Assembly (NCBI RefSeq): GCF_000403435.2
Contig: NZ_KE159707.1
Location: forward strand, 64,274 to 128,273
Length of the DNA: 64,000 nucleotides
From: Oscillibacter sp. 1-3
GTDB taxonomy: Bacteria > Bacillota > Clostridia > Oscillospirales > Oscillospiraceae
Reading direction: 5' to 3'
The notes under the pieces are model-generated. The model searched no databases. It worked only from the letters and a program-made list of their open reading frames with translations, and was not told where the DNA came from. Each line of letters opens with the position of its first letter. The first letter of the stretch is position 1. A program made the position numbers and the translations under genes. Below are positions 10,797 to 49,984 of this stretch, piece by piece.

Positions 10797-10965
10797 TGAA
10801 GTCGGACAGGTTTTGTACCACGGCCAGGGGATCGTCGGCAGCAAAGGCGGGGACGATCATGGCGGCCATGGCCAGCAGCAGGCAGGCGGCCAGGGCGTAC
10901 AGCCGCTTGGCCCGGCGCTCAATCCTCGTCTGCTCTCTCGTCAGGGTGTTCTTCGGTTTCTTCAT
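10797..10965 (-). CDS. Maff2/VirB2-like pilin, exon 1 (before group II intron)
   Basis: The exon begins MKKPKNTLTREQTRIERRAKR and contains a signal-peptide-like helix LYALAACLLLAMAAM ending in AFAADDP, then VVQNLSDF followed by the single A that completes an Ile codon in exon 2. An AAAAGGAG sequence precedes the ATG. With exon 2 the product is about 114 residues: a signal peptide plus two membrane helices, as expected for a VirB2-like pilin. The start overlaps the last 47 bases of virD4. Confidence 0.8.
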
Positions 10966-12700
10966 AGATTGCAGTCTCCTTTTCGTTTTCAAAAGATTCG
11001 GCCCCCAGGACAAACAGCGGTTTGCCTGAGAGCCAGGTTTCGGGTTTCTTCTGATGGTGGATGTAGGGCGGCCCGCCGCCGTCGACGGTGTGGCGGATGG
11101 CGGGGTGCTGGGTCAGCTCATACTTCAGGTCCAGGACCGGCTTCGCGCCCCGGATGAATAAAATGGCGTAACGGTTGTTCAGCATCCGCACTTCGTCCGG
11201 GGTCAAAAGTTCGCGGCCGCTCTGTTGAAAATTGGTGGAGTACGAGCCGGAGCGGCCTTTGGTCTGACCATGGGTCCGGGTGTCGATTGTTGACTTTCCA
11301 AGGGCCTCGGAAATGTACTTATGGGTGCTGGATTCGTTGCCGCCAAGGTATAAAATCGTGTCCGAATTGCCCGGAATTGTTTCCCACGAGTCCTTATACA
11401 ACTCTTTGATCTGTGCCATATTCTGTATAATGGTGCTTGCGGAAATGTTGCGGGAACGCATGGTGGCAAGCTCTCTGGTGAAGCCCGGCAGGGGCATGGC
11501 GGCGAACTCATCCAATACAAAATGGACGTGGCAGGGCAAGGCCCCGTGGTGGATCTGGTCGGCGCTGTAGTAGAGGGCCTGGAACGCCTGGGCGTAGAGC
11601 AGGCTCACCAAAAAATTGAAGGTCTGGTCGTTGTCCGGTATGACGGCGTAGAGTGCGCACTTCTTTTCTCCCAGCGTATACAGATCCATGTCGTCGTGAT
11701 TTGTAATGGCCTGGATCTGCGGCAGATTGAAGGGAGCCAGCCGGACGGCTGTGGACACTAAGATGCTTTTCGCCGTCTTGCCGGCGGCGAGCTTAAAGAC
11801 TTTATACTGCCGCACGGCGACGCTGTCCGGCTTCTCCCGCTCGATGGCCTGGAAGAGCAGGTCCAGCGGCGAGACATACTCCTCGTCCTCCTCCCGGACC
11901 TCGGCGTATTCCAGCACCCGCATCACCATGGAGAAGTTCTGCTCGTACTCCGGGGCCTCTTGAAACAGCATGAGGATGATGGCTTGCAGCAGAGCTGTTT
12001 CAGACTTCTCCCAGAACGGGTCACTGCTGTTGGTACCCTTGGGCGTGGTAGCCTGGATGAGATTATTCACCAGCCGCAGGGCGTCTTTCTCGTCCCGGAT
12101 ATAGCGGAAGGGATTGTAGCCGTCGCTCTCCTCCAGGTTCACAAGATTTAGCACCCGGATATCATAACCTTTTTCCTTCAGCCAGCCGCCTGTGGCCAGT
12201 AAAACCTCCGATTTAGGGTCCGTGACAACATAGTTTGTGTTGGCTTCCAAAATGTTCGGCTTAACATACGACCGGGATTTACCGGCGCCGGAGCCGCCGA
12301 TGACCAGCACGTTGAGGGAGCGGCGGTGCTTGTGGGTATCCAGCCCCAGGCGGACGTTGCGGGTGAGGAGCTTGTTTTCCTTTTGAGAAAACTGCCCGTT
12401 CACCTCACGGGGCGAGGCCCATGCGGCGGAGCCGTGCTCCTCGCCCTCCCGCGTCCGGCCCTGGTTGGCGGAACGGTAGAGCAGGGCCAGGATATACGCT
12501 CCCGTACAGGCCAGAATGGACAGGCCGCTGTATTGCGTCCAGTGAACGTCAAAAGGGTTTTCCAGCGCCGCCGTCAGCTTGGCCACGATGTCGGGCAGCC
12601 CTCCGCCCAGGGATTGAGCGATCAGCAACGCGGCCCAGACCACCGGAATGTACAGGAACAGGCAGACGGCGAGACGGCCTGTTTTTGTGGTTTGCTTCAA
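10919..12700 (-). CDS. virD4: VirD4-type coupling ATPase
   Basis: The 593-residue protein has two N-terminal membrane helices (about residues 9-30 and 58-75), Walker A GGSGAGKS (about 135-142), the VTDPKSE segment and Walker B HFVLDEFAAMP, all diagnostic of type IV coupling proteins that deliver the relaxase-DNA complex to the channel. The best start is TTG at 12,700, with GGAGGTGG 7-8 bases upstream; the longer open frame reaching back to 13,192 is only overlap with the upstream gene. It ends in an acidic segment (HPDERADED). Confidence 0.93.
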   Translation of the reverse strand: MKQTTKTGRLAVCLFLYIPVVWAALLIAQSLGGGLPDIVAKLTAALENPFDVHWTQYSGLSILACTGAYILALLYRSANQGRTREGEEHGSAAWASPREVNGQFSQKENKLLTRNVRLGLDTHKHRRSLNVLVIGGSGAGKSRSYVKPNILEANTNYVVTDPKSEVLLATGGWLKEKGYDIRVLNLVNLEESDGYNPFRYIRDEKDALRLVNNLIQATTPKGTNSSDPFWEKSETALLQAIILMLFQEAPEYEQNFSMVMRVLEYAEVREEDEEYVSPLDLLFQAIEREKPDSVAVRQYKVFKLAAGKTAKSILVSTAVRLAPFNLPQIQAITNHDDMDLYTLGEKKCALYAVIPDNDQTFNFLVSLLYAQAFQALYYSADQIHHGALPCHVHFVLDEFAAMPLPGFTRELATMRSRNISASTIIQNMAQIKELYKDSWETIPGNSDTILYLGGNESSTHKYISEALGKSTIDTRTHGQTKGRSGSYSTNFQQSGRELLTPDEVRMLNNRYAILFIRGAKPVLDLKYELTQHPAIRHTVDGGGPPYIHHQKKPETWLSGKPLFVLGAESFENEKETAIYEETEEHPDERADED

Positions 12701-12764
12701 ATGATAACCACCTCCATGAAGCGAGCGCCCCATGCCAAACGGCACAGGGCGCTCACCGCTTATT

Positions 12765-13286
12765 TTATAAAATTTCGATCTGGCACATCCGCATGGTGTC
12801 CAGCGCCGCCTTGTGGCTCTCCGGCGTGACTCCGGCGCAGCAGTCCGCGATGACCCGGACCGGCGTTTCCGGCAGGAACGCCTTGACCAGCAGGGCGTTG
12901 GAGACGACGCAGATGTCGGTGCAGAGCCCCACGAGGGTAATCTCCAGCTCGTCCAGCTCCGCCAGCAGAGCCAGCTTCTCGGCAAGTTCCCTGGAACCGA
13001 AGGTGGGTTTGTCGATAATGACCGCGCCTTCCAGGGCGGCGGCGATCTTGGGATGCAGCTCCCAGCCGGGAGTGCCTTTGACGCAGTGGACGGCCGGCAG
13101 CTTCCGGCCCTCCTGGGTTTCCAGGTAATTCTCAGCGTGGGTGTCACGGGTGGCAATGATATCGGAAAGGGGATACTTGCCAATTTCTTCAATTACCCGG
13201 TCCACGACGGCTTCCGCTTCCGGCGTCCCGAGAGCGCCGTCAATGAAGTCGTTCTGCATATCCACGACAATCAGCATTTTCCGCAT
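12765..13286 (-). CDS. Isochorismatase-family cysteine hydrolase (nicotinamidase-like)
   Basis: The 173-residue enzyme carries the family triad: Asp in LIVVDMQNDF, Lys in VHCVKGTPGW and the nucleophile Cys in GLCTDICVVSNALL. The length and motifs fit small nicotinamidase/pyrazinamidase-like hydrolases, and the substrate cannot be read from sequence. It lies in the same direction between virD4 and pcfB, which are normally adjacent, so it is probably cargo carried along with the transfer operon. The gene has its own Shine-Dalgarno (AAGGAG). Confidence 0.88.
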   Translation of the reverse strand: MRKMLIVVDMQNDFIDGALGTPEAEAVVDRVIEEIGKYPLSDIIATRDTHAENYLETQEGRKLPAVHCVKGTPGWELHPKIAAALEGAVIIDKPTFGSRELAEKLALLAELDELEITLVGLCTDICVVSNALLVKAFLPETPVRVIADCCAGVTPESHKAALDTMRMCQIEIL

Positions 13287-29843: not shown

Positions 29844-30985
29844 GCCGTTTTCTCCTTCTGGAGCTCGTCATCCACGGCCCGGATACGGCGGCCTATGGCC
29901 TCGATCACATTGACCGTGACGCTGTTCCCGGCTTGTTTATACGCCTGGGCATCCGAGGTGATAGCCAGGAGGCGGTCGATCTGGTCCTCCTCGAAGCCCT
30001 GGAGCCGGAGGCATTCCCTGGGCATGAGGCGGCGGATTCGTCCGCCCCGCTCCACGATGCCCTGCACACTGGCGGCGTCATGGGCCAGCTTGCTGACTCT
30101 GCCGCCTCTGGTTTTGCTGCCGGGATAGCCCAGGTCCACGCTGTCGCCGGGGACGGCCTCTTTGTAACCCTGCTTGGTGGGTTCCCGAACCAGCAGCACC
30201 CCGGACCGTTCCCGTGGATGAGTGGAAAGGCTTGTCTGCCCATAACGGGCCGTGAGACATCGGGCGATCTCCGTCCGTTCCGGCGCGCCCTTGCTCAGGT
30301 CCACGAGGTACAGCCCGGTCTTGGCTCCGGTGCCGCCGGAACCAGCGGTTTGCGTGCAGGCTACTCCTTCGACGTCGTAGACCCGGTAGCCCTGGGGACC
30401 GCCGATGAGCTGTATAAGAGCCTTTTCACCATTTCCGAAGACAGGTAATATTTTTCCGGCGCATCGGGAATCAAGATAGCAGATAAGGAACAGCCTTCTC
30501 CGGGATTGCGGCACGTTATGAGCGGCGCTGTTAAGCACAGACCACTCGACATGATACCCCAGGTCGCCCAGCGTGGAGAGGATGGCCGCAAATGTCCGCC
30601 CCTGATCGTGTGACAGGAGTCCGGGTACGTTTTCGAGAAGCAGATACGAAGGCCGCTTTGCTTCAGCCAGTCGGGCAATCTCAAAAAAGAGAGCGCCTCG
30701 GGGGTCAGCGAAGCCAAGTCGATGCCCTGCCATTGAGTAGCTTTGGCAAGGAAAACCTCCGCAAAGCAGGTCGAAGTCCGGCATTCCGCCGGGGTCGATT
30801 TCTCTGGCGTCTGGATAATAGCATTCCTCCTCCCCAATGTCGTGCATGGCACGGTAGCTGGCGTCGGCGTATTTGTCGATCTCACAGTGGCCGACACACT
30901 GGAAACCGCCCGCGCGGTCCAGCCCGGCCCGGAAGCCGCCGATCCCCGCGAACATATCAAAATAGCGAATCAGTTCATTCTTCAC
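29840..30985 (-). CDS. dcm: DNA (cytosine-5) methyltransferase
   Basis: The protein has the C5-methyltransferase motifs: motif I DMFAGIGGFR, catalytic GGFPCQSYSMAG, ENVPGL and VPQSRRRLFLI, and the C-terminal QAGNSVTVNVIEAI. The central region (about 190-290) is the target-recognition domain. There is no adjacent endonuclease. The start is unclear: GTG at 30,985 gives 381 residues, CTG at 30,973 is better spaced from GGAGG, and the first ATG (30,958) lies within motif I. It ends KEKTA. Confidence 0.9.
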   Translation of the reverse strand: MKNELIRYFDMFAGIGGFRAGLDRAGGFQCVGHCEIDKYADASYRAMHDIGEEECYYPDAREIDPGGMPDFDLLCGGFPCQSYSMAGHRLGFADPRGALFFEIARLAEAKRPSYLLLENVPGLLSHDQGRTFAAILSTLGDLGYHVEWSVLNSAAHNVPQSRRRLFLICYLDSRCAGKILPVFGNGEKALIQLIGGPQGYRVYDVEGVACTQTAGSGGTGAKTGLYLVDLSKGAPERTEIARCLTARYGQTSLSTHPRERSGVLLVREPTKQGYKEAVPGDSVDLGYPGSKTRGGRVSKLAHDAASVQGIVERGGRIRRLMPRECLRLQGFEEDQIDRLLAITSDAQAYKQAGNSVTVNVIEAIGRRIRAVDDELQKEKTA

Positions 30986-31277
30986 CTCCGTCGTGCTGCA
31001 GCGCAAGCAAAAAACCGAGGACATTTTCATCCATGTCCCCGGCCTGTGGCTGCACAGGTTTTTCTGTTGAAGGAACAAAGCTGGCGCTGCCCAGCTCCTC
31101 CCGGATGGCGGCGCGGACCGCCTCCAGAAGGCTGTCCTGCTCCCGCACCCGGCAGACCGCCCGGCAAACGGCCTCCGTCCGCTGCCCCGAGGGGATGGCG
31201 CACAGCCGTTTCCATGCCTCCCGCTGGAGAGGAGAAGCCATGGAGAGGGAGAGGTTCAATCTCCTCTTTTCAGCCAT
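30975..31277 (-). CDS. parR: ParR-like centromere-binding protein
   Basis: The 100-residue protein begins MAEKRRLNLSLSMASPLQREAWKRL, a ribbon-helix-helix type N-terminus, followed by an acidic C-terminal tail (AGDMDENVLGFLLALQHDGGEE), the organisation of ParR adaptors in ParM systems. It is directly downstream of the actin-like gene with an eight-base overlap. The paired position is the main support. Its target parC repeats were not found by eye nearby. Confidence 0.75.
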   Translation of the reverse strand: MAEKRRLNLSLSMASPLQREAWKRLCAIPSGQRTEAVCRAVCRVREQDSLLEAVRAAIREELGSASFVPSTEKPVQPQAGDMDENVLGFLLALQHDGGEE

Positions 31278-37586: not shown

Positions 37587-40500
37587 TCAATAGCCGGTAC
37601 GGGGCAGTTTGGGCACGGAGGGCTTCTTTCCGTAGACGGTGGTCACCCAGCGGCTGACCGCCTGGACCCATACGCCTTGGTAGGTGCCGCCCACGTCCGC
37701 CTTGTTTACAAAGGAACTGGCGGCGATGCTGGACACGGCCTTGCAGTGGATCATGGGCTTCTCCACCTGGGCGAAGCCGCCGGGGACCTGCCCAAAGACG
37801 AACATGATTTCTGTGACCCGCTCGTTGCTGGCGAGGCCCAGAGCCGTGGCGGAGGCGGCGAGGGTGTAGTTTTTCTGGGTGGAGAGGTTGTCCGCCAGGG
37901 TCTGGGGCTCTCCTCCGTTCACCCGGTAGGTGATCTTATAGGTTCCGGGGAAGTTATAGGTGCCGGTGACGATCTTCTCCAGCCGCACCTCGGCGGGAAG
38001 CGTGTCCCGCCAATAGAAATTGTCAAGGCGCACGTTGGAGCTGTTGGCGATGCCGGAGAATATGTAATTGACCGGCTGGCCCGCCATGACCTCGGCGGGG
38101 CCGGTCTTGGTGATGGACACGCCGGTGGTCATGCTCTTGTTTGTCACTTCGAAGCGGACGATCTGGCCTTCGTGCTCCAGGTATGCTGTCAGGGGCGTTT
38201 CGTTTACGCCGTAATTGGCGGGCGCTTTGACCTCCCGGATGGTATAGCGGCCCAGAGGGAGCTGACGGGAAACGGCGAGGCCCCGGCCATCGCTGCGGAT
38301 GGTGTCCACGAGGTTGCTGGCCTTGTCGTAGATTTCAAAGACCGCGCCCTCCAGCAGCGTTCCGGCGGGGAGGCCATTGGTGGAATTGTAGTCGGCGGAT
38401 TTCTTTGTGATCTGAATCTGACCGGAAATGGGGGTGTTCTCCCACTCCACTAGGGTGGTCTCCCCGGGCTTTACATAGACGGTTTTCATCTGGGTGTCCG
38501 TGATGTAGCCCTCGTTCTCCAGTTCCCGCAGGTAGTAGCGGCCTGCCGTGGTGATGCCCTCGATGTACACATACCCGGAATTGTCGCTGGTGTACTGCCC
38601 GATGGGAGTGTTGGCGCTGTCGTACAGCAGGAAGCTGACGCCATAGATGCCTTTCTTGGTGACAGAATCAACCTTGTGAATTAAAATGCCCGAGAAAGCC
38701 TTGTTCGTCACCGTGAGTGTGGTGGTTTCGCCATCCTTGATGGTGAAATACTGCGGGGTTTCATCGACCTTGAAGCCCTTTGCGGCCTCAATCTCGACGG
38801 CATAGTAATCCCCGGCGTCCAGGTCCGCATGGACCCGGCCCGTGGAATCCGTAACGACGGTTTCCACCAGAGCGCCGTCCATTCTGCGGATTTCAAACTT
38901 GACGTTGGGAATGCGCTGGGTTTTGTCGGCCTCGTTGACCTTGATCAGCTCCAGGCCGCCTGCGGGGACATTTTCAAAGGTGATGGTCTGGGTGTCATTG
39001 GCGTTCACCTGGACAGTCTGGCGCTTGGTGTTCGGATCGATGACATAGCCGGGGAGCGTTTCGATTTCCTCCACGATTATCGTGCCCACAATACCGGGGA
39101 TTTTGATCTGGCCCAGGGAATCCGTCGAGTAGAGACCGTTGGAGGAAATCTTTCCGCCATCCAGGTCCACGTTGGAGCCGTCGGCGTAGGTGATTTTGAA
39201 TTTCACACCCGCCAGCGGCTTCTTGGTCGCGGCGTCGATCTTGTTGATGATCAGCCCTCCGGCTTTCTTGTTCCAAAAGGTCAGGCTCTGGGCCTCGCCC
39301 TCCTTGATGAGGATGCTCTGGGGCTGACCGTCAAGGATATAACCGTCCAGGGTCTTGGTTTCTTTGACGGTGATGGTCGTGCCAGGGGTCAGGCCGGGGA
39401 TGGAAATGCGCCCATCCTTGTCAGTGGTATAGTAGCCGCTGTTGGGTCCCACGACAGCCCCGGAACTGTCTGTTACCAGAAATTCCACACCAGCCAGCGG
39501 CTCGTTGTCGCTGCCGTCGATGAATTTTTGAATCGTCAGCGTGTTGGCGGGGATGTTGTAAAAGGTTGCCGTCTGTGTTTCCTGGGGATTGACCGTAATA
39601 GTCTGGCTCTCTCTGCCCGGTTCGATGGTATATCCGGGCAGGGGCCGGGTTTCCTTGATTACAACGGTCCCCACGATGCCGGAGATATGGATTTCCCCGT
39701 GGTCATCAGTCGTATAGAGGCCCTTGCTGGAGAGGTGTCCATTGTCTGTGTCAACGTAGCCGCCCTCAGCATAGATAACCTCAAATTCTACGCCAGCCAG
39801 AGGCTTTCCGGTTTGCTTATCCAGCTTGCGGATAATCAGCGAACCGGCGGGTTCATTCCAGAAGGTGAGATTCTGAGCCTTGCCCGCCTCGATCTTGATG
39901 CTCTGGGGACGGCCATCCAGGACGTAACCGTCCACGGTTTTGATCTCCTGGGCGGTGATGGTGGTGCCGGGTTCCAGGCCCTCCAGCACAATCTCGCCCG
40001 CATTGTTTGTGTAGTAGATGCCTCCGTCGGGATTCAAGGGCTTGCCGGAGCCGTCCACCACTTTGAAGGCTACGCCAGCCAGGGGTTCGTTGGCGGTTCC
40101 CTCAATGTACTTGTGGATTGTCAGCGTCATCTTGGGGTCATTCTCGAAAGTGAGATCGTTGTTGCCTCCGCTGGAACTTCCTCCGGAACTGGTCCCGCCG
40201 GAAGAGCCGCTGGTCCAGCTGTTGCCGGAGCCGTTTTTCACGATGATGGTCTTGGGCGTGGTGTCCAAAACATAGCCGTCCGGGACTCTGCTTTCAGACA
40301 CCACAACGGTGCTGCCGGGGATGAGGCCCGTTACTACGACGGTCCCGTCCTTTCCGGTAGTGTAGCGGCCCAGCACATTGCCATTGCCGTCCTTGACGGT
40401 AAACTCCGTGTTGGGCACAGGCTTTCCGGTGACAGAATCCAACTTGGTCAGCGTCAGGCTGCACATGGGTTCGTTGTAGAAGCGAAGGGTCTGGGTGTCC

Positions 40501-43500
40501 TGGGGATTGACCACGACGGTCTGGCTCTTGCTGTTGGGGTCCATGACATAGCCGTCGGGGGCCTTTTCCTCCGTGACCACCAGGGTTCCGGTCACTTGGG
40601 TGATCTTGATCTGCCCGTTGCTGTCGGTGGTGTAGATGCCGTTGGAAGAAAGTTTGCCGCCCTCGGTGTCGACCACGCACCCGTCGGCGTAGAGCACCTT
40701 GAACTGTGCGCCCGCCAAGGGGGCCTTTGTGACGGAATCCAGTTTTTCAATGATGAGAGTTCCGGCCCGTTTGTTCCAGAACGTGAGGCGCTGTACCTCG
40801 CCGCCCTTGATGAGAATGTCCTGCGGAGTCCCATCCAGCACAAAACCGTCCACAGTTTTGATCTCACGGGCCTTCACAGTAGTGCCGGGTTCAATGCCGC
40901 TCAGCACGATCTCGCCGGCCTTGTCCGTGTAATAGGTCCCATCATCAGGGCCGACCGCCGCTCCGGAGCCGTCGGTGACCTTGAACGCAACGCCGCTCAG
41001 AGGCTCGTTTTCGGTGCCCTCAATGAACTTTTGAATAATCAGTGTTGTTCCGGGCTGATTGTCAAAAATCAGCCCGTTGGCCACACCGGAGCGGACGACG
41101 ATATTCTTCGGCGTCTGATCCAGAATGTAGCCCTTCGGCGCTTTCTGCTCAGACACGACAACGGTAGCGTTGGGCTTCAGGCCGGAGACCGTCACAGTAC
41201 CGTCGGCGCCGGTGGTGTAGAGCCCATTGTTGGGGCCGGCCACATGCCCGTCGCTGTACTGGACCAGGAACTGCGCCCCAGCCAGAGGCTTATGGGTCAC
41301 GGCGTCCCGCTTCAGGATGGTCAGGGTGCAGAGAGGGGCGTCATAGAATCGGAGTGTCTGCGTGTCCCCGGCGTTGACCACCACCGTCTGGGGCGTGGGG
41401 TCCTTCTCATAAAAATCAGGGGCTTTGTCCTCCGTCACGACATAGGTGCCGGGCTGAATTTTGGAGATTACGATCTGCCCATTCTGGTCTGTGGTATAAA
41501 GGCCATTGCTGGAGGTGAGTCCCTCATTATCGGGGAGCAGCTCTCCATTAGCATTGGTAATTTTGAACCGTGCTCCGGCCAAGGGTTCCTTGGTGATCTT
41601 GTCATACTTTTCGACAATGAGCCCGCCCTTCGGAGTATTGGTCACGATGACCGTTTGGGTGTCTCCGTTGGGGCCAATTACCACGTTTTTGCTGGGTTCG
41701 TCCATGACATAGCCTGCCGGGGCCTTGACTTCCGTCAGCACATACGCGCCGGGAGCAAGATTGGAAATCCGAATCTCACCGTTGGAATCTGTGGTAAAAA
41801 TGCCGTTCTGCGTGAGCGTAGCGGTACCAATCACGCCGTCCAGACCCACCTCGCAGCCAGCGGCAGTTGTCACACGGAACTGAGCGCCGGGGAGGGGCTG
41901 GCCGCTGACGCTGTCCCGCTTCTGGATAATCAGTTTTCCCTTGGGCTGGTTTTTGAAGGTCAGGCTGACCGTCCGGCCCTCCTTAATTTGGACGGTCTGC
42001 GACTGCGTGTCAATGATGAATCCGTCCGGTGCCTTGGTCTCCGTTACGATCACGCTCTTGCCAGGCTTCAAACCCTCAATGCGGATTTCTCCGTGGGTGT
42101 CGGTCCGGTAAATCCCATTGGAATCACCAATCAAAGTTCCATCCGCGTAGGTGACCTTGAACTCAGCGTCCTGGAGGGTGATGCTGGGGTTGACGGAGCA
42201 GACCTTCCTGATGAGGAGATTTCCGTCCGGCGAATTATCAAAGGTCACAGTAATGACATTCTGCACGCCGTCGTCCGAAATGTAGACCGTTTCAGAGGAA
42301 TTGATGATGGAATACCCATCAGCGGGGTCGATCTCCTCCACGATATAGGTGCCCGCAGTGAGGCCCGTCCAGATGCAGGTGCCGTTTTTCCCGGTGACCT
42401 TCTGCCCGATGACCGTGCCGCCCGTGCCGGAGGTGCCGCCCAGGAAGCGGAGCTGGAAGGTGCAGCCAGGCAGGGCCTCGCCGGTAACAGAGTCATACTT
42501 CTCAACGACGATCCCGTTTAAGGGTTCGTTCTGGAAAGTGACGGTTTTGCTCTCGTTTCCGTGGATAATGACCTTCTGTGTGGTGGGTTCCTTCATCTGG
42601 AAGCCGGGGGCAGGAGCCACTTCCGTGATGGTGTACTCACCAGGATAGAGACGCTTGCCCTGTTCGTGCAGCTTGATCTCGCCCCTGGCGTCCGTGAAGA
42701 TGTAGCCAAAATCAATGGCAGCCGGAGCCTCGGCGGCTTCGCCGTTGCTGGTGTAAGTCACATGGAACTTGGCCCCCTCAATGGGAGCGCCTGCCACGCT
42801 GTCTTCCTTGAAGATGGTCAGCTCGGGGGCCTTGCGGTTCTTGAACGTCAGCTTCTTCACATCTCCGGCGTTCAGGGAAACCGTTTGCACCCGGTCGGCG
42901 TCCTTGTCTGGGAGGAAGTAAGGCGCGGGGACGGAAATCTCCGTGACCCGGTAGGTGCCGGGCTCCACCCGCTTCGTTACCATGCCGTCCGGCCCGGTCT
43001 TCCAATCGTCCTGGAAATCACCGTTGATGGCCTCCACCCGGAACACGGTGTCGGGGATCGGCTCCTGACTGTCCGCGTCGATCTTATAAAGGGTCAGCTC
43101 CGGCTTCTTCAGGTTTTCAAAAATGACTTCCTTCTCGTCGCCGCCGTTAAGGGAGATCGTCTTGGTCCGCTCCTCGCCAATCACATAGGGCTCGGGAACG
43201 GACTGCTCGGTGATGCGGTAGCTGCCGGGGGCGACCCGCAGCTCCACGGAGCCGTTGGCCTCGGTGGTCAGGTTCTGACGGTAGTCGCCGTCAATGGCCT
43301 CCAAAAGAAAAACGGTGCCGGGGATTTTTTCGCCGGTGCCCTTCTCCACTTTCGAGATTTTGAGCAAGGGCTGCTTGAGGTTGTCGAAGATGAGCTGCTG
43401 ATCGTCGCCAGCCCCCAGCCAGATCGTCTGGGTGGGCTCGTCGCTGACAACCCAGGGGTCCGGGACGCTCTTTTCCGTGACCTCGTAAGAATCCACGGGA

Positions 43501-45227
43501 ATGCCTGTGAGGACCGCTTTGCCGTCCGGTCCGGTGGTCACGTCGTCGTGGAACCCGAAGTGGATGCCTTTGATCTCAAAATGGGTGTCCGGGATGACGT
43601 CGCCGGTCTGAGCGTCCCGCTTCAAGATCGTCAGGTTCGGCAACCTCTTATCCGCCGCGGAGACGGTAATAGTCTCGCCGCCGTTGATGTCTGCCTGATC
43701 TACATGGACGATTACAGGGTCCTCCAGCTTGGCCCAGGGGGCCGGAGCGGACGCCTCCACAAAGGCGTACAGGCCCTCAGTCACATCCGTCACCGTGATA
43801 CTGCCGTCTTCCTTGGTGGCCTCGGTGCCGATGATCTGCCCGTCCTTCAGGATATTAAAAACAGCGCCGGGGAGGGGATTGTTGGAATCGTCCAGCTTGA
43901 TGAGCTGAATTTTTACCTTGCTGTCATTTTCAAAAACGAGGGAAACATCGGATTTTCCATCCCAATGGAAGCTCTGCTTCACCTTGCTTTGGTCAGAGCT
44001 TTTCGTGTAGCCCTTCGGGGGAGTCATCTCCTCCGCCACATAGCTGCCGATGGGCATGGAATCCCAGGGCACATCCGTCAGCCAGCCGCCCTCGGCGGTT
44101 GTGTAGGTTCCGGTGAAAGAATTGTCCACGCCGGTGATCTTGATCACCGCTCCGGCGAGGCCCTTGGAGGGATTATCCGCGTCCACTTTACGGATGCTGC
44201 CCTCGCTGGTGATGGTGGTGCTGTCCCGGAAGGTGACCGTCACAGTATTATTCCCATTGCTGGGCAGGGTGACATACTGCGGGGCGGCGCTGTCGATTTC
44301 ATAGCCCTCCGGGGCAGAGGTCTCTGTCACGGCATAAGTTCCGGCGCTGAGGCCGCTGATCCGGTAGGTGCCGTTCTGGCCCGTGACCACGTCCTTGGAA
44401 TAGGAGCCGTTAGTGGATTCGATGTGGAATCCGGCCCCAGGAAGGCCCTTGCTGGGATTGGTAGCGTCCACCTTCTTGACGATGAGGACGTATTCCTCCT
44501 GCTCAACGTGTTCCACCGTCAGGTCGCCCAGGATGATCTTCTGCACAGACCCGGCGGGGTGGGCGGAGCTGCCGGCACCAGTGAAGGTGTATTCATACAC
44601 AGCGCACTTGCCCCAGACGCCCTGGCTGCCCAGCTCCAGAATGTACTGGGTCCGGTCCCGGAAGGAAGAGTTGCCCTGCTTCTGATCGATGCTGGTGTAG
44701 TGGGTGCCCTCCAGGGAATTGTAGACTGCCATCAGTTCCTCGGCGCAGGCCACGACAGGGTCGCTCATGCTGCCCTGCTGATAGCGCCAGATACACGCTT
44801 GAACCCAGGCGTTCATATACCAGCGGTAGCCCGCGTTCCAGACGTCGTTGACGCCCAGGGCAATGGCCTCATCGGTGAAAACGCCGGTGGAGTGGGCATA
44901 GTAGTAGGCCATCATGGTTTCCACGGTGGGGTCCGAGATGGACCGCTTGTTCCCCCAGGTCTGGCCCTGGAGAGAGTTCCCCATGTCGCCGCCCTTGGTG
45001 CCGCAGAAGCCGGTGGTGGTCTGGTTTCCGTTTTTGAAGGTCATTTCATGGAGCGTGCAGCGCCCCAGGGCCGCGGACTCATAGGCCACGCCGGAGTGGC
45101 CGAACTCCTTCAGCGTGATGGTATCCCCGGCGGCAAAGGCCGTGGTGGGGAACAGGCCCAGGACGCAGATCAGCGCCAGCAGCAGGGACGTCAGGCGCGT
45201 TCGCAGGGAATGATGTTTTTCGTTCAT
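37587..45227 (-). CDS. Giant SpaA/Cna-B-repeat adhesin with thioester-type domain
   Basis: The 2,546-residue protein starts with a signal peptide ending TTAFAAGD. Residues about 35-260 resemble a thioester adhesin domain, with Cys in TTTGFCGTKGG and Gln in VQACIWRYQQG. About 22 Cna-B/SpaA repeats follow, each with K-x-D near the start and an E in the E-x-xAPxGY segment expected to form isopeptide bonds. A Ser/Gly-rich linker separates repeats 15 and 16, and repeats 13-19 are near-duplicates. A final non-repeat domain ends KLPRTGY: an LPxTG-like motif with no membrane helix or charged tail. It is likely a long stalk that attaches to recipient cells or host surfaces. Confidence 0.88.
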   Translation of the reverse strand: MNEKHHSLRTRLTSLLLALICVLGLFPTTAFAAGDTITLKEFGHSGVAYESAALGRCTLHEMTFKNGNQTTTGFCGTKGGDMGNSLQGQTWGNKRSISDPTVETMMAYYYAHSTGVFTDEAIALGVNDVWNAGYRWYMNAWVQACIWRYQQGSMSDPVVACAEELMAVYNSLEGTHYTSIDQKQGNSSFRDRTQYILELGSQGVWGKCAVYEYTFTGAGSSAHPAGSVQKIILGDLTVEHVEQEEYVLIVKKVDATNPSKGLPGAGFHIESTNGSYSKDVVTGQNGTYRISGLSAGTYAVTETSAPEGYEIDSAAPQYVTLPSNGNNTVTVTFRDSTTITSEGSIRKVDADNPSKGLAGAVIKITGVDNSFTGTYTTAEGGWLTDVPWDSMPIGSYVAEEMTPPKGYTKSSDQSKVKQSFHWDGKSDVSLVFENDSKVKIQLIKLDDSNNPLPGAVFNILKDGQIIGTEATKEDGSITVTDVTEGLYAFVEASAPAPWAKLEDPVIVHVDQADINGGETITVSAADKRLPNLTILKRDAQTGDVIPDTHFEIKGIHFGFHDDVTTGPDGKAVLTGIPVDSYEVTEKSVPDPWVVSDEPTQTIWLGAGDDQQLIFDNLKQPLLKISKVEKGTGEKIPGTVFLLEAIDGDYRQNLTTEANGSVELRVAPGSYRITEQSVPEPYVIGEERTKTISLNGGDEKEVIFENLKKPELTLYKIDADSQEPIPDTVFRVEAINGDFQDDWKTGPDGMVTKRVEPGTYRVTEISVPAPYFLPDKDADRVQTVSLNAGDVKKLTFKNRKAPELTIFKEDSVAGAPIEGAKFHVTYTSNGEAAEAPAAIDFGYIFTDARGEIKLHEQGKRLYPGEYTITEVAPAPGFQMKEPTTQKVIIHGNESKTVTFQNEPLNGIVVEKYDSVTGEALPGCTFQLRFLGGTSGTGGTVIGQKVTGKNGTCIWTGLTAGTYIVEEIDPADGYSIINSSETVYISDDGVQNVITVTFDNSPDGNLLIRKVCSVNPSITLQDAEFKVTYADGTLIGDSNGIYRTDTHGEIRIEGLKPGKSVIVTETKAPDGFIIDTQSQTVQIKEGRTVSLTFKNQPKGKLIIQKRDSVSGQPLPGAQFRVTTAAGCEVGLDGVIGTATLTQNGIFTTDSNGEIRISNLAPGAYVLTEVKAPAGYVMDEPSKNVVIGPNGDTQTVIVTNTPKGGLIVEKYDKITKEPLAGARFKITNANGELLPDNEGLTSSNGLYTTDQNGQIVISKIQPGTYVVTEDKAPDFYEKDPTPQTVVVNAGDTQTLRFYDAPLCTLTILKRDAVTHKPLAGAQFLVQYSDGHVAGPNNGLYTTGADGTVTVSGLKPNATVVVSEQKAPKGYILDQTPKNIVVRSGVANGLIFDNQPGTTLIIQKFIEGTENEPLSGVAFKVTDGSGAAVGPDDGTYYTDKAGEIVLSGIEPGTTVKAREIKTVDGFVLDGTPQDILIKGGEVQRLTFWNKRAGTLIIEKLDSVTKAPLAGAQFKVLYADGCVVDTEGGKLSSNGIYTTDSNGQIKITQVTGTLVVTEEKAPDGYVMDPNSKSQTVVVNPQDTQTLRFYNEPMCSLTLTKLDSVTGKPVPNTEFTVKDGNGNVLGRYTTGKDGTVVVTGLIPGSTVVVSESRVPDGYVLDTTPKTIIVKNGSGNSWTSGSSGGTSSGGSSSGGNNDLTFENDPKMTLTIHKYIEGTANEPLAGVAFKVVDGSGKPLNPDGGIYYTNNAGEIVLEGLEPGTTITAQEIKTVDGYVLDGRPQSIKIEAGKAQNLTFWNEPAGSLIIRKLDKQTGKPLAGVEFEVIYAEGGYVDTDNGHLSSKGLYTTDDHGEIHISGIVGTVVIKETRPLPGYTIEPGRESQTITVNPQETQTATFYNIPANTLTIQKFIDGSDNEPLAGVEFLVTDSSGAVVGPNSGYYTTDKDGRISIPGLTPGTTITVKETKTLDGYILDGQPQSILIKEGEAQSLTFWNKKAGGLIINKIDAATKKPLAGVKFKITYADGSNVDLDGGKISSNGLYSTDSLGQIKIPGIVGTIIVEEIETLPGYVIDPNTKRQTVQVNANDTQTITFENVPAGGLELIKVNEADKTQRIPNVKFEIRRMDGALVETVVTDSTGRVHADLDAGDYYAVEIEAAKGFKVDETPQYFTIKDGETTTLTVTNKAFSGILIHKVDSVTKKGIYGVSFLLYDSANTPIGQYTSDNSGYVYIEGITTAGRYYLRELENEGYITDTQMKTVYVKPGETTLVEWENTPISGQIQITKKSADYNSTNGLPAGTLLEGAVFEIYDKASNLVDTIRSDGRGLAVSRQLPLGRYTIREVKAPANYGVNETPLTAYLEHEGQIVRFEVTNKSMTTGVSITKTGPAEVMAGQPVNYIFSGIANSSNVRLDNFYWRDTLPAEVRLEKIVTGTYNFPGTYKITYRVNGGEPQTLADNLSTQKNYTLAASATALGLASNERVTEIMFVFGQVPGGFAQVEKPMIHCKAVSSIAASSFVNKADVGGTYQGVWVQAVSRWVTTVYGKKPSVPKLPRTGY

Positions 45228-45324: not shown

Positions 45325-46086
45325 TTATTCGTAGGGATTATGGCTGGTGGGATCACCCACGACCATGTAGCAGTAGGCCCGGCCATTTTGGAAGGTAACG
45401 CCGGTTCCAACGTGGGATGCCTCCTCCAGCAGCATAGTGGCATAGTGCCCAGGCGACGCGATCCAGTAGTCAATGGCCTGCCGGGCGATGTCCGGGCAGT
45501 CATAGGCGCCGAACATGGTGAGGTTGTAGAGCCCGCCGTGGGGCCAGCCGTAGCGGATGAGTGCCATGTGGTCATAGGGCCGGTGCTCCGTGACGCCTTG
45601 ACCGGAGACATCCTGGGCGGCATTCATGAGGGATTCGTCCATGGGAAGCTCCGCGAGGCCGTTCTCCCGGCGCACCTCGTTGATGAGCCGGACCATCTCC
45701 AGACGGATGTCCATGTTGACAGACAGGTCCAGGGCTTCGCTGGGGGCCGGGGACGGCTCCGCCGCTTCTACGGTCAGCGTCAGACCGCCGGTGCTTCCGG
45801 CCTTATCGGTGACGGTGATCTCAGCCGTCCCCTCCGCCCTGGCCACCGCTACCCAATAGGTCAGGACCCGCTCCAGGGTGATAGCCTCCGGGTTGCTGGA
45901 TTCGGCGATGTACTCCGGTCCGACAGGTCCGATGATGAGGCAGCTCCTTTCGCCTGCCTCCAGGGTATTGCCCTTGTAGCTGCCTACCCGGATCTCCGGG
46001 TCCGCTGCCAGAGCCGGGCCTGCCAGCAGCGCCGCGGACAGTATGCCAGCCGCCAACATCCCAAACACTTTACTGTTCCTTTTCAT
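45325..46086 (-). CDS. Secreted CAP-domain protein
   Basis: The 253-residue protein has a signal peptide (MLAAGILSAALLAGPALAA), an N-terminal domain resembling a bacterial Ig-like fold (ITVTDKAGSTGGLTLTVEA), a Pro/Ser linker and a C-terminal CAP/SCP domain with EMVRLINEVRREN, TEHRPYDHMA, DYWIASPGHYATMLLEEASHVG and YCYMVVGD. CAP proteins on Gram-positive elements are surface or secreted factors of unclear role. It lies between sortase and adhesin. Confidence 0.85.
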   Translation of the reverse strand: MKRNSKVFGMLAAGILSAALLAGPALAADPEIRVGSYKGNTLEAGERSCLIIGPVGPEYIAESSNPEAITLERVLTYWVAVARAEGTAEITVTDKAGSTGGLTLTVEAAEPSPAPSEALDLSVNMDIRLEMVRLINEVRRENGLAELPMDESLMNAAQDVSGQGVTEHRPYDHMALIRYGWPHGGLYNLTMFGAYDCPDIARQAIDYWIASPGHYATMLLEEASHVGTGVTFQNGRAYCYMVVGDPTSHNPYE

Positions 46087-46180: not shown

Positions 46181-47053
46181 TTAATCCGTCAGCTCAACCG
46201 CTCTCACACACCAACGGAGGTCCCGCTCATCCCGGACGCAGGTGTACAGCGTCAGGCAGTTGTCGGAGGTGTTCTCCAGGCTGCTCCGGTCCGTTTCCGT
46301 CACCTTTGCAACGGAGGTCACCTCATAGGTCCGGGTCCCCTCCTTGGTGGAGAGGGTGATCTCATCGCCAGCCTCCAGGGTATGGATTTTGCCGAAGTAG
46401 GAATTGGTCCCCCGGTTGTGGGCGGCCAATCCGACGTTGCCGTTCCAGATGGAGGTTTCCTCAAAGTGGCCCACACCCTTCTTCAGCGCGGCGCTGTCCG
46501 TGCCCTGGACGATTTTGACGCTCAGGCCGATGACGGGGATTTTCAGGGTACCCAGGGAGCCGTTGCTGTAGTAGCTGTCCTCGGTGACGCTGGTAAAGCC
46601 GACAGAGGCCGTGTCATTGGGCCGGGTGGTGACAGTGAACTGCTCCGGGGGAGTGGAAGAGCCGGAGGAACTGCTGTCCAGGATGGACGTGCTGGGCAGG
46701 AACCCGCCCATGCCGCTGGACACACCATTTTCCGAAACAGAGTAATTTGCGCTGCCCACCTGATTCACCAGTCCGCCGCTCAAAGCGCCGGGGACAAGGT
46801 TCGGCGTGAGGGCCTCGCCGCTGCCGGGAAGGTAGCTGGTAGGGGTACCGAAGCCGGGGGCCACCAGGGCCACGTTTTTGCTCCGGTCCACGTTGGGGTT
46901 CTCCTCCTCGTAGATGGTATCGTCGCTGGTGGGCCGGGCGAACAGGAAATCGTCCGCTCCATCGTAGCTGTACTCCAATGCGCTGGCCTGGACGGCGCAC
47001 AGGACGCAGATCATGCAGGCCAGCAGGAACAGTCTGAACTTTTTCAATGGCAT
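46181..47053 (-). CDS. Sortase (class D-like)
   Basis: The 290-residue protein has a signal peptide/anchor (LFLLACMICVLCAVQASA), a Ser-rich linker, and a sortase domain with the catalytic His in GLAAHNRG, the Cys in LTLYTCVRDERD and the Arg in RWCVRAVE. Sortases cleave LPxTG-type signals and link proteins to the wall or to each other. Its likely clients are the adhesin ending in LPRTGY and perhaps the CAP protein. The start overlaps the upstream stop by one base (TAATG). The 94-base gap to the CAP gene holds only a Shine-Dalgarno. Confidence 0.85.
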   Translation of the reverse strand: MPLKKFRLFLLACMICVLCAVQASALEYSYDGADDFLFARPTSDDTIYEEENPNVDRSKNVALVAPGFGTPTSYLPGSGEALTPNLVPGALSGGLVNQVGSANYSVSENGVSSGMGGFLPSTSILDSSSSGSSTPPEQFTVTTRPNDTASVGFTSVTEDSYYSNGSLGTLKIPVIGLSVKIVQGTDSAALKKGVGHFEETSIWNGNVGLAAHNRGTNSYFGKIHTLEAGDEITLSTKEGTRTYEVTSVAKVTETDRSSLENTSDNCLTLYTCVRDERDLRWCVRAVELTD

Positions 47054-47949
47054 TATCTCCTTCCTCTGATCTTTTTGAATACAAATACACCGCCCAGGAC
47101 CAGGGCCAGTACCACGCCGCCGATCATGAGCGGGCGCCCGATGCCGGAGATGTCGACGGGCTCACCGTCCTGAGCGCCGGAATCCTTGGGAGCGTCAGTG
47201 CTGCCGAACACGGCGGTGTAGGTGACCACATTGCAGCCGGTTTTGGAGACCTCTCCACTGTAGTCGGCGGTCACCGTGTACCCGGTGGCGTACTTACTGG
47301 AGGTGCTGCCGGTATACCGGGCCGTGGCGGTGTAGCGGGTGACCACGCCCTCGCCGGACTCCTGAGTGGAATTGCTCCACTGCACGTCCGCCAGGGTCAA
47401 GCTCCGTCCGCCGTCCGAGATGGTCTTGGGCACCAGGGACAGGTCCGCGTCCGACAAATTCGGATAGGTACGAGTCGCAGACACTGTGCCGGTCTTGGTG
47501 GCGTAGCCGTCCGTGGTCACCTTGACCGTGGTGTGGTCCAGGTGCAGCTTCCCGGTGTAGCCGTCCTCCGTGACGGTTTCGATCTCGGCATCCAGAGTCT
47601 GGAGGATTTTCTCCATGTTATTGGTGTCGCTGGGCATGGTCACGGTCTGGACATGGGGCTTGGTATCCACCCCCACCTCGTCCTTCCGGGTCATGTCCAG
47701 CAGGTAGTACAGCCGCCCGTTTCGCTCGAAGTCCTCCGTGGGAATGAGGCTGGGGTCATCGTCCAGGGACAGCTGATACACCTTCTGGATGCGAAGCTCG
47801 TCGAAGTCACCGTAGGTGTATTCCTCTACGGAAATGGGGTAATAGGCGCTGTCCCTGCCCGGTCCGGATTCTTCGGCGGCCTGGACGGGAACGGACAGAA
47901 GCGTGGAAAGCAGGAATGCAGCCAGGAGCAAAGGAATCGATCTTTTCAT
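47053..47949 (-). CDS. Membrane-anchored surface protein
   Basis: The 298-residue protein has a signal peptide (LLLAAFLLSTLLSVPVQAA), an extracytoplasmic region rich in Thr/Tyr and beta structure (GYTGKLHLDHTTVKVTTDGYATKTGTVSATRTYPN, positions about 47,440-47,560) and a C-terminal membrane helix (LMIGGVVLALVLGGVFVF) followed by KKIRGRR. No LPxTG precedes the helix, so it is membrane-bound and not sortase-linked. It is co-transcribed with the sortase and may hold or present the adhesin. Confidence 0.7.
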   Translation of the reverse strand: MKRSIPLLLAAFLLSTLLSVPVQAAEESGPGRDSAYYPISVEEYTYGDFDELRIQKVYQLSLDDDPSLIPTEDFERNGRLYYLLDMTRKDEVGVDTKPHVQTVTMPSDTNNMEKILQTLDAEIETVTEDGYTGKLHLDHTTVKVTTDGYATKTGTVSATRTYPNLSDADLSLVPKTISDGGRSLTLADVQWSNSTQESGEGVVTRYTATARYTGSTSSKYATGYTVTADYSGEVSKTGCNVVTYTAVFGSTDAPKDSGAQDGEPVDISGIGRPLMIGGVVLALVLGGVFVFKKIRGRR

Positions 47950-47970: not shown

Positions 47971-49815
47971 TTATCGTTCCGCCTCACGGCGGGAAGGAGC
48001 CGCTCTCTGGGGCGGAGCGATGGTTTTCTCAATGGAACCGCCAATCTGACGGCTCATGCCTTGAATCTCTTTCAGAAAGGCCAGCCGGTCCTCGATCTCC
48101 CAGCCCTGGCAGCGCTCCGCCATCTTCGTCAGGTCCGGCAGCTCCCGCTGGACGCCGAAGCGGCGGCAAAGGATGTACGACACGCTCTGGGCGCTCAACT
48201 CACAGCTCTCCCGGCTGTAAACAGGATTGCGGCCCCGGTCATGAAACCGGGCCTGGGCAATCTCGGCGGCGATGGCCGCAAACGCCTGGCCGTCCGGGCA
48301 GGCAGTGTCAATAGCCAGCGTCATCTGCCGGGGGTCATAATAGGCCCCGGAGGGCAGGTTTTCACCGGCAACAACCTGAACGGGCGAGAAGTTCAGCAGG
48401 GCGGTCAGGGCCGCTTCCATGGGTTCGGTGTCCTCCTTAAGCTGGACCGTCCGCAGCTCCCGGCCCTGGGTCTGGGCGATATCGTAGACGCTGGTGAGGC
48501 TGTAGCCCCGGCCCGTGGCGGAGCGTGTAAAGATGCTGGCGCCGTTTTTCAGCTCCGGGTCCAGAACAAAGCGGCCCAGGTCCTTCCAGTGGCCGCGGGT
48601 GTGGAGAACCGTGGCCTCCGGGAGCTGGGCCATGGCCAGGGCGATGTTCCCGGAGCTGTAGGAAGGGTTGTCCCCCTGCATAGCCAGGTAACGGGCAAAT
48701 TTCCCGGGGTCCTTGGTGATCTGTATGACGCTGGCGTCCCGAAGGGCAGCGGCGGTTTCCTTATCCGCCTGCCGCTCCTCCCGCCATTTGGCGTCCGCCG
48801 TGGATTTGTCGCTGATGATCTTGCCTAAGTTCGCCATAGGTTTGGTTTCCTCCTTTTTTGTGGGATTTTCTGTGCTTTTGGGTGGCTTCACCTCCTCTAA
48901 GACCCCCGTGAGCTTGTATTTGAGCTGCGCGTTCCAGTCCTTGCCGTACTTCGGGACCCGGATTTCCACCTCGTACCCAGCCGCCCGGTACTTCTCCCGC
49001 ATCTCCTTCGCCGCCGTGATCCCAGGCTCGTCATGGTCCAGCAGGAGCTTGATGGATTTCAGGTGGGGATGGTCCCGAAGGTAGGTGTCCAGCGGTCCGC
49101 TGTACAGCCCGCAGAGGGCGACGGCGTTGCTGTGGACCTCCGGGCAGAGGGTGCAGAAGCTCATGAGGTCGATAGGGGCCTCGAAAACCGCCACCTCCTC
49201 GATCTCCGGCTCACAGGGCAGCCGAAAGCCCACCTTTTTGTCGCTGCCCAGGACGTCCCGTTTAAATCCGGACCCATTGAAGTCCAAGGTCCCGCGCTTG
49301 CTGGCGAATTTGGGCTGGCCGCTGCCGTCCCTGCCGACAAACACGCAATTGTGATATGGGGCGTCCTCGTAGAGAAGCCCGGCGTCCAGAAAGCGTTGGA
49401 TTACCTGAGACGCAATTCCCCGCTTGCGAAGATACGCAAACACCCGGCGCTGGTCCGGGTTCGCGGGAGGCAGGACGAAGGGCGGCTTTTCCCTGGGCGG
49501 AGGCGTCTTGGGGCGGGGGATGGGCTTGTCCCGGTCGGGGGAGTCTCTGGACCGCCCATGATAGGCCAGCAGGTAATCCACCGCCTCCGGGAAGCGCATT
49601 CCGCAGAACTCCTGGAGGAATGAGATGGCATCGCCGCCCTGCCGGGTGGAGTAGCGCCTCCAGGTAAGGCGCTCCTTGATGCGGATGCTGTCCATCTCCG
49701 CTGTGGTGTAGTAGCTGCCGATCCGCTTCAGCGTATAGCCCAGAGAGGACAGCAGGTCCGGCAAATCCGTGTGCCTGGTGATGTCCAGCTCCGTTTCCGT
49801 GAAGCCGTAGGCCAT
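47971..49815 (-). CDS. DUF3991/TOPRIM primase-like protein fused to a C-terminal metallopeptidase-like domain
   Basis: The 614-residue protein begins with a primase-like segment (LPDLLSSLGYTLKRIG, WRRYSTRQGGDAISFLQEFCGM), then a TOPRIM domain with the acidic motif VAVFEAPIDLMSF and IKLLLDHDEPG (about 200-270). From about residue 330 a second part appears (IITKDPGKFARYLAMQGDNPSYSSGNIALAM, then QVVAGENLPSGAYYDP), resembling LtrC-like domains of conjugative elements. It may prime or process transferred DNA. TTG at 49,827 is better spaced from GGAGGTG and may be the real start. It ends RAAPSRREAER. Confidence 0.75.
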   Translation of the reverse strand: MAYGFTETELDITRHTDLPDLLSSLGYTLKRIGSYYTTAEMDSIRIKERLTWRRYSTRQGGDAISFLQEFCGMRFPEAVDYLLAYHGRSRDSPDRDKPIPRPKTPPPREKPPFVLPPANPDQRRVFAYLRKRGIASQVIQRFLDAGLLYEDAPYHNCVFVGRDGSGQPKFASKRGTLDFNGSGFKRDVLGSDKKVGFRLPCEPEIEEVAVFEAPIDLMSFCTLCPEVHSNAVALCGLYSGPLDTYLRDHPHLKSIKLLLDHDEPGITAAKEMREKYRAAGYEVEIRVPKYGKDWNAQLKYKLTGVLEEVKPPKSTENPTKKEETKPMANLGKIISDKSTADAKWREERQADKETAAALRDASVIQITKDPGKFARYLAMQGDNPSYSSGNIALAMAQLPEATVLHTRGHWKDLGRFVLDPELKNGASIFTRSATGRGYSLTSVYDIAQTQGRELRTVQLKEDTEPMEAALTALLNFSPVQVVAGENLPSGAYYDPRQMTLAIDTACPDGQAFAAIAAEIAQARFHDRGRNPVYSRESCELSAQSVSYILCRRFGVQRELPDLTKMAERCQGWEIEDRLAFLKEIQGMSRQIGGSIEKTIAPPQRAAPSRREAER

Positions 49816-49857
49816 GTTTGCGTTCAAAATAAATTCACCTCCAATCTGGCCGAAAGC

Positions 49858-49904
49858 AAAAACAGCCGGGCAGGGTACTCCTTTGGGGATACCCTGCCCG
49901 GCTG
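49858..49904 (-). terminator. Terminator-like hairpin with Shine-Dalgarno in its loop
   Basis: A 15-bp stem (49,863-49,877 with 49,890-49,904; TACCCTGCCCGGCTG and its complement) is followed by TTTTT on the minus strand. The 12-base loop reads TCCCCAAAGGAG, including AAAGGAG. It lies in the leader of the primase-like gene, so it may attenuate transcription of the surface-protein operon. Confidence 0.7.
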
Positions 49905-49984
49905 CTTCTCCTGGGGCCGTAATGTTTGCGCTGTCAAGTCCCAACTTTCACGAAATCCGCCCGTCTTTTTCTCCATGTCCGGCA

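Follow-up and report, generated by a model that had tools for sequence, protein, structure and literature searches.

LPXTG sorting signals are described as tripartite (PMC3237569), and in the wall-sorting signal represented by PF00746 the helix and the basic tail stand in the same protein as the LPxTG motif. TIE adhesins, which combine a Cna-B stalk with a thioester-type domain at the N-terminus, marked by Cys, TQ-like helix and Gln motifs, are almost always wall-anchored through LPXTG (PMC4450167). The thioester adhesin of pLS20 is needed for efficient conjugation. It has no sorting signal, host sortases are dispensable, no sortase is encoded on its element, and how it is attached is described as an open question (PMC8092201). 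Cna-B/LPXTG surface proteins are also encoded by conjugative transposons of C. difficile, which we liken to the present locus by their description; a sortase accompanies them in one case (PMC3158075, PMC6814731). Here, we report on a locus of Oscillibacter sp. 1-3 encoding a giant adhesin, a sortase and a 298-residue membrane protein. It lies in a stretch of 64,000 nucleotides (contig NZ_KE159707.1, positions 64,274 to 128,273), hereafter the window.

The adhesin shares a thioester-type tip and the stalk with the TIE adhesins, but ends in LPxTG plus one residue. Like TIEpLS20, it is a thioester adhesin that belongs to a conjugative element and has no normal sorting signal, but it retains the motif and has a cognate sortase next to it. 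With the PF00746 signal it shares the LPxTG motif and a sortase, whereas the helix and the basic tail are both found on the neighbouring protein. On balance, we consider it probable that the three proteins form a display platform on a conjugative element, with the sorting signal split over two of them.

A giant adhesin ending one residue after LPxTG

The minus strand at 37587-45227 translates into a secreted protein of 2,546 residues, with the following parts:

37587..45227, minus strand, stop codon included: giant adhesin, 2,546 residues (translation; Pfam SpaA, 22 stretches)
45132..45227, minus strand: signal peptide, residues 1-32, ending in AFA before A (sequence; inference)
44508..45125, minus strand: thioester-type domain, residues 35-240 (AlphaFold mean predicted local distance difference test score (pLDDT) 81; top four VIA-align rows; motifs)
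45003-45005 and 44541-44543, minus strand: predicted thioester pair, Cys75 and Gln229 (motifs)
38124..44489, minus strand: stalk of 22 Cna-B domains, residues 247-2368 (Pfam; own segmentation)
37608..38123, minus strand: conserved C-terminal domain, residues 2369-2540 (own-genome alignment; family and phylum searches)
37590..37607, minus strand: LPRTGY-COOH, minimal sortase signal without anchor (102 of 106 distinct tails)

The reading frame is open upstream to 45623, within the gene of a CAP-domain protein. The start was placed at the ATG at 45227, which is preceded by the Shine-Dalgarno-like GGAAAGGAACCC and followed by the signal peptide. At the other end, the protein terminates in PSVPKLPRTGY. 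The motif is thus near the C-terminus, as in an LPXTG sorting signal, with neither a hydrophobic helix nor a basic tail after it. The next gene encodes an SSB-like protein, its ATG lying ~85 bases past the adhesin stop, and no intrinsic terminator was found after the adhesin gene.

The end was compared across 123 loci, taken from family, phylum and relative searches (the relative set being 80 of 197). A match to the C-terminal domain was obtained in 121 of them, giving 122 matches and 106 distinct tails. LPxTG plus one residue was the terminus in 102 of the 106, from many assemblies, and judged from these tails the anchorless end is held more often than by chance. The exceptions were L155, which has lost the motif and reads on, the truncated copy in L166, and the tails of L090 and L091/L094, which are weak matches and probably unrelated. 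In the 102 tails, the x residue was Arg (60), Lys (34), Thr (6) or Gln (2), i.e. basic in 94, and the last residue was Tyr in all but one, which had His. All four Gly codons were used, and the stop was TAA (54) or TGA (48), which argues that selection acts on the protein.

In 88 of the 102 tails, no hydrophobic stretch could be reached by readthrough or frameshift. Such a stretch was reachable in 14, seven times by readthrough and three and four times in the two shifted frames. The seven readthrough stretches are the beginning of a downstream gene that has a start codon of its own and encodes a membrane protein, presumably a VirD4-type coupling protein. In these loci (L022, L024, L026, L135, L145, L168 and L178), that gene opens within a few codons of the end of the adhesin gene and shares its frame.

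The genome of Oscillibacter sp. 1-3 has eight C-terminal domains, all coinciding with matches to an LPxTGY-stop pattern. Six further domains besides that of the window align with it and end in LPRTGY or LPKTGY. PF00746 had no match in this genome, while the same search was positive in 2 of 14 control genomes; annotation by this model would therefore miss these substrates. Across the phylum the C-terminal domain was rare (7 of 398 genomes including this one, four of them weak matches), and five relatives were detected on viral contigs. The LPxTGY-stop pattern matched 71 of 299 genomes in the phylum, and its reversed control also gave matches, so it is too loose as a phylum-level screen. Within the family, the pattern had a match in 35 of 150 genomes. 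Among 85 pattern loci, 23 frames of at least 80 residues ended in [LF]PxTG plus one residue; 20 of these were adhesin C-terminal domains, and the remaining three, in L053, L200 and L211, were short. In genome G138, a second LPATGY-stop match (C56:9825-9845) occurred ~650 bases after the adhesin end, and no frame of at least 80 residues had that end.

As far as the compared sequences tell, ending without an anchor is characteristic of the family and no truncation. In the literature, no account of a conserved anchorless LPxTG end was recognised from titles and abstract openings among the matches listed, with subscription journals mostly uncovered. A preliminary description of this DNA had given the 2,546-residue protein at these coordinates, with an LPRTG-like motif at its extreme end and no helix or positive tail. 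Both points stand, the stop following one codon past the Gly. It had also named a downstream frameshift supplying an anchor as what would refute it, and no conserved frame of this kind emerged. The trait's spread through the family and the conjugation genes went unremarked there.

A sortase and a membrane protein that accompany the adhesin

Upstream of the adhesin lie the CAP protein, the sortase and the 298-residue membrane protein. The latter two had been pointed out as neighbours in the preliminary description, and the C-terminal hydrophobic helix of the membrane protein was found here. Their features are:

46181..47053, minus strand: cognate sortase, 290 residues, signal peptide ending in ASA before LEY (PF04203; alignment; Foldseek sortases)
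46817..46831, minus strand: internal LPGSG motif of the sortase, residues 75-79 (alignment; Gly79 invariant)
47053..47949, minus strand: membrane-anchored partner, 298 residues, with signal peptide, ectodomain, C-terminal helix and basic tail (alignment, hydropathy)
47077..47133, minus strand: predicted C-terminal transmembrane helix of the partner, followed by a KKIRGRR tail (hydropathy 2.46)

The sortase matched PF04203 with 87.3 bits (cut-off 26.6) and TIGR01076 with 63.4 bits (cut-off 39.35). His212, Cys272 and Arg280, which we take to be its catalytic residues, were invariant in 39 of 39 aligned sortases. The nearest solved folds of its catalytic domain, as revealed by Foldseek, were class C pilin sortases. 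It differs from these in scoring below the class C, D and E cut-offs of NCBIfam (59-77 bits against 140-165 for the window sortase, relatives being scanned by E-value only), in having no C-terminal helix, and in carrying an LPxSG-like motif where the lid might be. All 39 sortases had a single N-terminal hydrophobic stretch, followed by an AxA site in 37 by regular expression and by VSA and VGA in the other two; no hydropathy above 1.21 was found after the PTS motif in any of the 39. The internal motif lies within a conserved N-terminal stretch and read YLP[GNQ][ST]G in 25 of 39 rows, with relatives showing LPNSG, LPNTG, LNTG or LHTG at the LPGSG site. By its place in the alignment, this motif is possibly a pseudo-substrate lid; the predicted structure has low confidence at residues 41-150 (block pLDDT 34-65). 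Phages and plasmids yielded distant sortases only, all below 60% identity (4 and 21 records).

The membrane protein had N-terminal and C-terminal hydrophobic stretches in 31 of 31 rows, with basic residues after the C-terminal one. Hydropathy of the C-terminal stretch was at least 1.6 in 27 rows and 1.22-1.54 in the others. Two lysines, K56 and K175, were kept in 30 of 31. No convincing relative was found by sequence searches of Pfam, NCBIfam and the PDB. Matches to PF00746 and to a CD1107-like model (two of 31 members each, best E 0.046 and 0.069) were unconvincing, and a Trypan_PARP match of two members (E 0.00014), being to a low-complexity model, was taken as composition.

The genome of Oscillibacter sp. 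1-3 has ten places with a related sortase, nine with a relative of the membrane protein and eight with a C-terminal domain, some cassette copies being interrupted or partial. Among loci from genome contigs with an adhesin frame beginning over 3,200 bases into the locus stretch, 25 of 33 had both partners somewhere in that stretch. The other eight, which had one or neither, all had adhesin frames below 1,000 residues, as do L121 and L150 among the 25. A sortase match was counted as strong below our own cut-off of E 1e-40 (62 of 150 family genomes had some match at E<=0.001). By this measure, the membrane protein and strong sortases occurred in the same 24 of 150 genomes. The C-terminal domain was present in 20, of which 19 were among those 24 (Fisher p 1.5e-18).

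The three parts also diverged together. In pairwise comparisons of the same 15 loci, divergence of the C-terminal domain correlated with that of the sortase (r=0.80) and of the membrane protein (0.82), and the latter two with each other (0.85; permutation p 0.0002 for each of the three). The C-terminal domain and the thioester tip of the same protein gave 0.03 (p 0.27). Without L117 (n=14), these values were 0.80, 0.81, 0.86 and 0.15, and after removal of three more near-duplicates (n=11) they were 0.79, 0.75, 0.81 and 0.16. A larger, hand-chosen set (35-36 of 36 loci) gave 0.80, 0.72 and 0.68 for the first three. Among the neighbours, the C-terminal domain gave 0.42 with the CAP protein (n=13) and 0.35 with a DUF3991/Toprim protein (n=10), and the sortase gave 0.10 with the latter (n=11). 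From these comparisons, tips appear to be swapped, while the base travels with its sortase and membrane protein.

How the adhesin may be held on the cell

Studies of S. aureus SrtA offer a reason for the one residue beyond the motif. For this enzyme, the Gly of the motif cannot carry a free carboxylate (PMC5714338), and a terminal carboxylate may inhibit it (PMC4723074). One residue past the Gly would then be there because the Gly may bear no free carboxylate, and if the adhesin's sortase behaves like SrtA, no signal shorter than LPxTG plus one residue would be competent. SrtA also incorporates soluble LPETG peptides supplied from outside (PMC4723074), which speaks for the proposal below.

Starting from the conserved end, the gene partnership, the coupled divergence, the predicted tip fold and the conjugation genes, we infer the cleavage, the acceptor, retention via the membrane protein and the role in mating. 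The giant adhesin would be exported by Sec, with its thioester tip held out on a Cna-B stalk of ~100 nm. The C-terminal domain would present LPRTGY to the cognate sortase, which would cut between Thr and Gly and free a Gly-Tyr dipeptide. The membrane protein, with its C-terminal helix and basic tail, would supply retention, because the adhesin and the sortase each appear to be without a membrane anchor of their own. It could do so as the acceptor, via a lysine such as the nearly invariant K56 or K175. Alternatively, it could serve to keep the sortase membrane-bound, with peptidoglycan as the acceptor of the adhesin. The tip would most likely mediate cell-cell contact for DNA transfer, as in the pLS20 thioester adhesin. 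The preliminary description had suggested that the sortase and the membrane protein may replace the missing anchor; the conserved end, the shared genomes and the coupled divergence favour this idea. A more specific version is possible, though we would not put it above doubtful. In it, a secreted sortase, gated by its own LPxSG-like pseudo-substrate, joins the LPRT end to a lysine of the membrane protein and thus anchors the adhesin covalently there and not to the wall.

If the split signal is real, retention and cleavage are separable, whereas the textbook signal is tripartite within one protein. The locus would then provide a natural means to ligate protein to protein through a minimal tag, and possibly an answer to how the pLS20 conjugation adhesin, also without a sorting signal, stays on the cell.

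Several points weigh against this proposal, which is built from comparative and predicted evidence. Cleavage of the sortase signal peptide is predicted from its pattern, and with an uncleaved N-terminal helix the enzyme would be an ordinary membrane sortase. The partnership has gaps: the membrane protein and the sortase are also present in 5 of the 130 genomes that lack the C-terminal domain, one place in the Oscillibacter genome (L013) has both with no adhesin part found, and G138 has an adhesin still ending in NLPKTGY and no sortase/membrane-protein pair. Mirror correlations can also stem from joint inheritance of neighbouring genes. Divergence of the sortase correlated with that of the CAP protein (0.60, n=13) and weakly with that of the tip (0.24, 0.35 and 0.32 for n=15, 14 and 11; p 0.09, 0.007 and 0.04). 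The CAP and Toprim neighbours thus correlate as well, mostly less strongly, so linkage may account for some of the signal. The tip lies equally near and does not follow the C-terminal domain.

The strongest alternative is ordinary wall anchoring through a shortened signal, which we regard as rather unlikely but deserving of attention. Here, a sortase with an uncleaved N-terminal helix would join LPRT to a peptidoglycan stem peptide, and the membrane protein would be irrelevant to retention. The catalytic domain is that of a normal sortase, and S. aureus SrtA incorporates exogenous soluble LPETG peptides without a helix into the wall, although these substrates needed a high concentration (PMC4723074). 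Wall anchoring leaves unexplained, beyond linkage, why the membrane protein occurs in the same 24 genomes as the sortase and diverges in step with the C-terminal domain.

Conservation and co-divergence extend over the whole C-terminal domain, beyond the motif. This would also fit LPRTGY being a non-covalent docking tail, the domain binding one of the two partners, sortase or membrane protein, without any transpeptidation. However, the conserved L, P, T and G plus one further residue match sortase chemistry, and the three positions taken as catalytic are kept in every aligned sortase. We consider such docking improbable. Pilus-like polymerisation, in which the sortase links adhesin to adhesin, is suggested by the class C folds and by an NCBIfam match to the stalk, a pilin model. 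It is very improbable, since a single subunit is already a 22-domain stalk, the window sortase scores below the class C cut-off, and each of six paralogue loci in the Oscillibacter genome has one C-terminal domain (L166, elsewhere, has two, one truncated). A truncated pseudogene or a sequencing frameshift that lost the anchor, to which the missing helix and tail and the 14 reachable stretches might point, was rejected as hardly credible: the end is conserved across assemblies and shared by all eight own-genome copies, most tails have no reachable helix, the readthrough cases are the next gene, and a helix after the motif was seen in none of the 106 tails.

Tip, stalk and conjugative setting

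Three thioester-domain motifs are named for TIE proteins (PMC4450167), and the window adhesin was read at the corresponding places. Cys75 lies in FCGT, which has Gly in the third place of the [YFL]C-hydrophobic-hydrophilic motif (FCAE in many relatives), and was invariant in 21 of 21 aligned tips. VQACIWRYQ, with Gln143, resembles the TQxxPhiW motif. Gln229 lies in VQKII (residues 228-232), which fits the hydrophobic-Q-hydrophilic-hydrophobic-hydrophobic motif. This column was VQ in 18 of 21 tips, and the three divergent ones (L117, L145, L169) have MQRLL further along instead. Cys75 and Gln229 are 154 residues apart, compared to 152 in SfbI, 153 in PnTIE and 129 in CpTIE (PMC4450167).

The AlphaFold model of the tip had a mean pLDDT of 81 and a predicted template modelling score (pTM) of 0.75. 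VIA-align placed four thioester domains on top (5dcq, 5a0g, 5a0d and 4c0z; Z 7.1, 7.0, 6.9 and 6.9; 136-158 residues aligned), and the next, unrelated row had Z 3.2. A thioester-domain fold is supported by this model comparison, cautiously, since a Z under 8 can reflect merely a common arrangement. Foldseek matched nothing at E<=0.001, and by sequence, a thioester domain was detected with neither Pfam nor PDB profiles. A weak DUF1889 match (10 of 21 tips, best E 0.003) was taken as chance. In seven loci (L113, L119, L129, L158, L173, L176 and L014), another N-terminal domain with YCVN was present, with TQLAIW in L014. This suggests a second kind of thioester-like tip swapped onto the same adhesin base.

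In the stalk, the Pfam SpaA/Cna-B model matched 22 stretches (982.8 bits), and our own segmentation likewise gave 22 domains. Lys was found at domain position 5 in all 22, and by inspection Glu and Asn/Asp were at the expected places in all 22. Cna-B domains are ~4-5 nm long each, from which the stalk would be roughly 100 nm. The most similar repeat pairs were 13/16 (67% identity), 13/18 (63%) and 11/14 (60%), followed within repeats 13-19 by 16/18 (59%), 14/19 (58%) and 17/19 (54%). With 67% at best and a mean of 33% over all pairs, repeats 13-19 fit an old two-domain duplication and no recent expansion.

On these points, the preliminary description fared unevenly. It had placed an N-terminal Cys and Gln as in thioester adhesins and counted about 22 Cna-B repeats, and both are found; the structure prediction it named as a check put thioester domains first in VIA-align, with Foldseek empty. 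Its near-identical pairs in repeats 13-19, and the recent expansion read from them, did not hold. Overall, its architecture and anchorless end were supported.

The window also holds genes for a relaxase, a VirD4-type coupling protein, a DUF3801 protein, an actin-like partition protein, SSB and DNA methylases. Relaxase and coupling protein (PF03432, PF02534) in the same stretch point to the cassette as conjugative cargo, and coupling-protein relatives lay within ~11 kb of four other C-terminal domains of this genome:

14127..15536, minus strand: relaxase (MobA/VirD2) of the conjugative element (PF03432)
10919..13192, minus strand: VirD4-type coupling protein of the conjugative element (PF02534)
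45325..46086, minus strand: secreted CAP-domain protein, 253 residues (Pfam PF00188)
47971..49944, minus strand: DUF3991/Toprim protein upstream of the cassette, seen in some related loci (domain scan)
Other C-terminal domains of the genome, each with the nearby coupling-protein relative: C9 345/348 kb, C5 362/373 kb, C1 766/776 kb, C1 611/610 kb

Relatives of the CAP protein were matched by similarity in some related loci, not all. The 80 of 197 relatives include Oscillospiraceae bacterium, Oscillibacter, Flavonifractor, Pseudoflavonifractor, Flintibacter, Acutalibacter and Anaerotruncus. Elsewhere in the Oscillibacter genome, a paralogous adhesin frame (L012, C8 ~404937) ends inside a Cna-B domain beside a gene that by eye is serine recombinase-like, and an adhesin C-terminal part (C8:423719-427471) lies ~19 kb away on the opposite strand. 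Another paralogue (L017, C1:611000-630500) is split by a transposase-like gene, also judged by eye, with a second copy in the locus. Within the window, a group II intron reverse transcriptase/maturase (8351-10192) adjoins the coupling-protein gene, and S-adenosylmethionine synthetase, amidoligase and C-5 cytosine methylase are encoded at 25723-31078.

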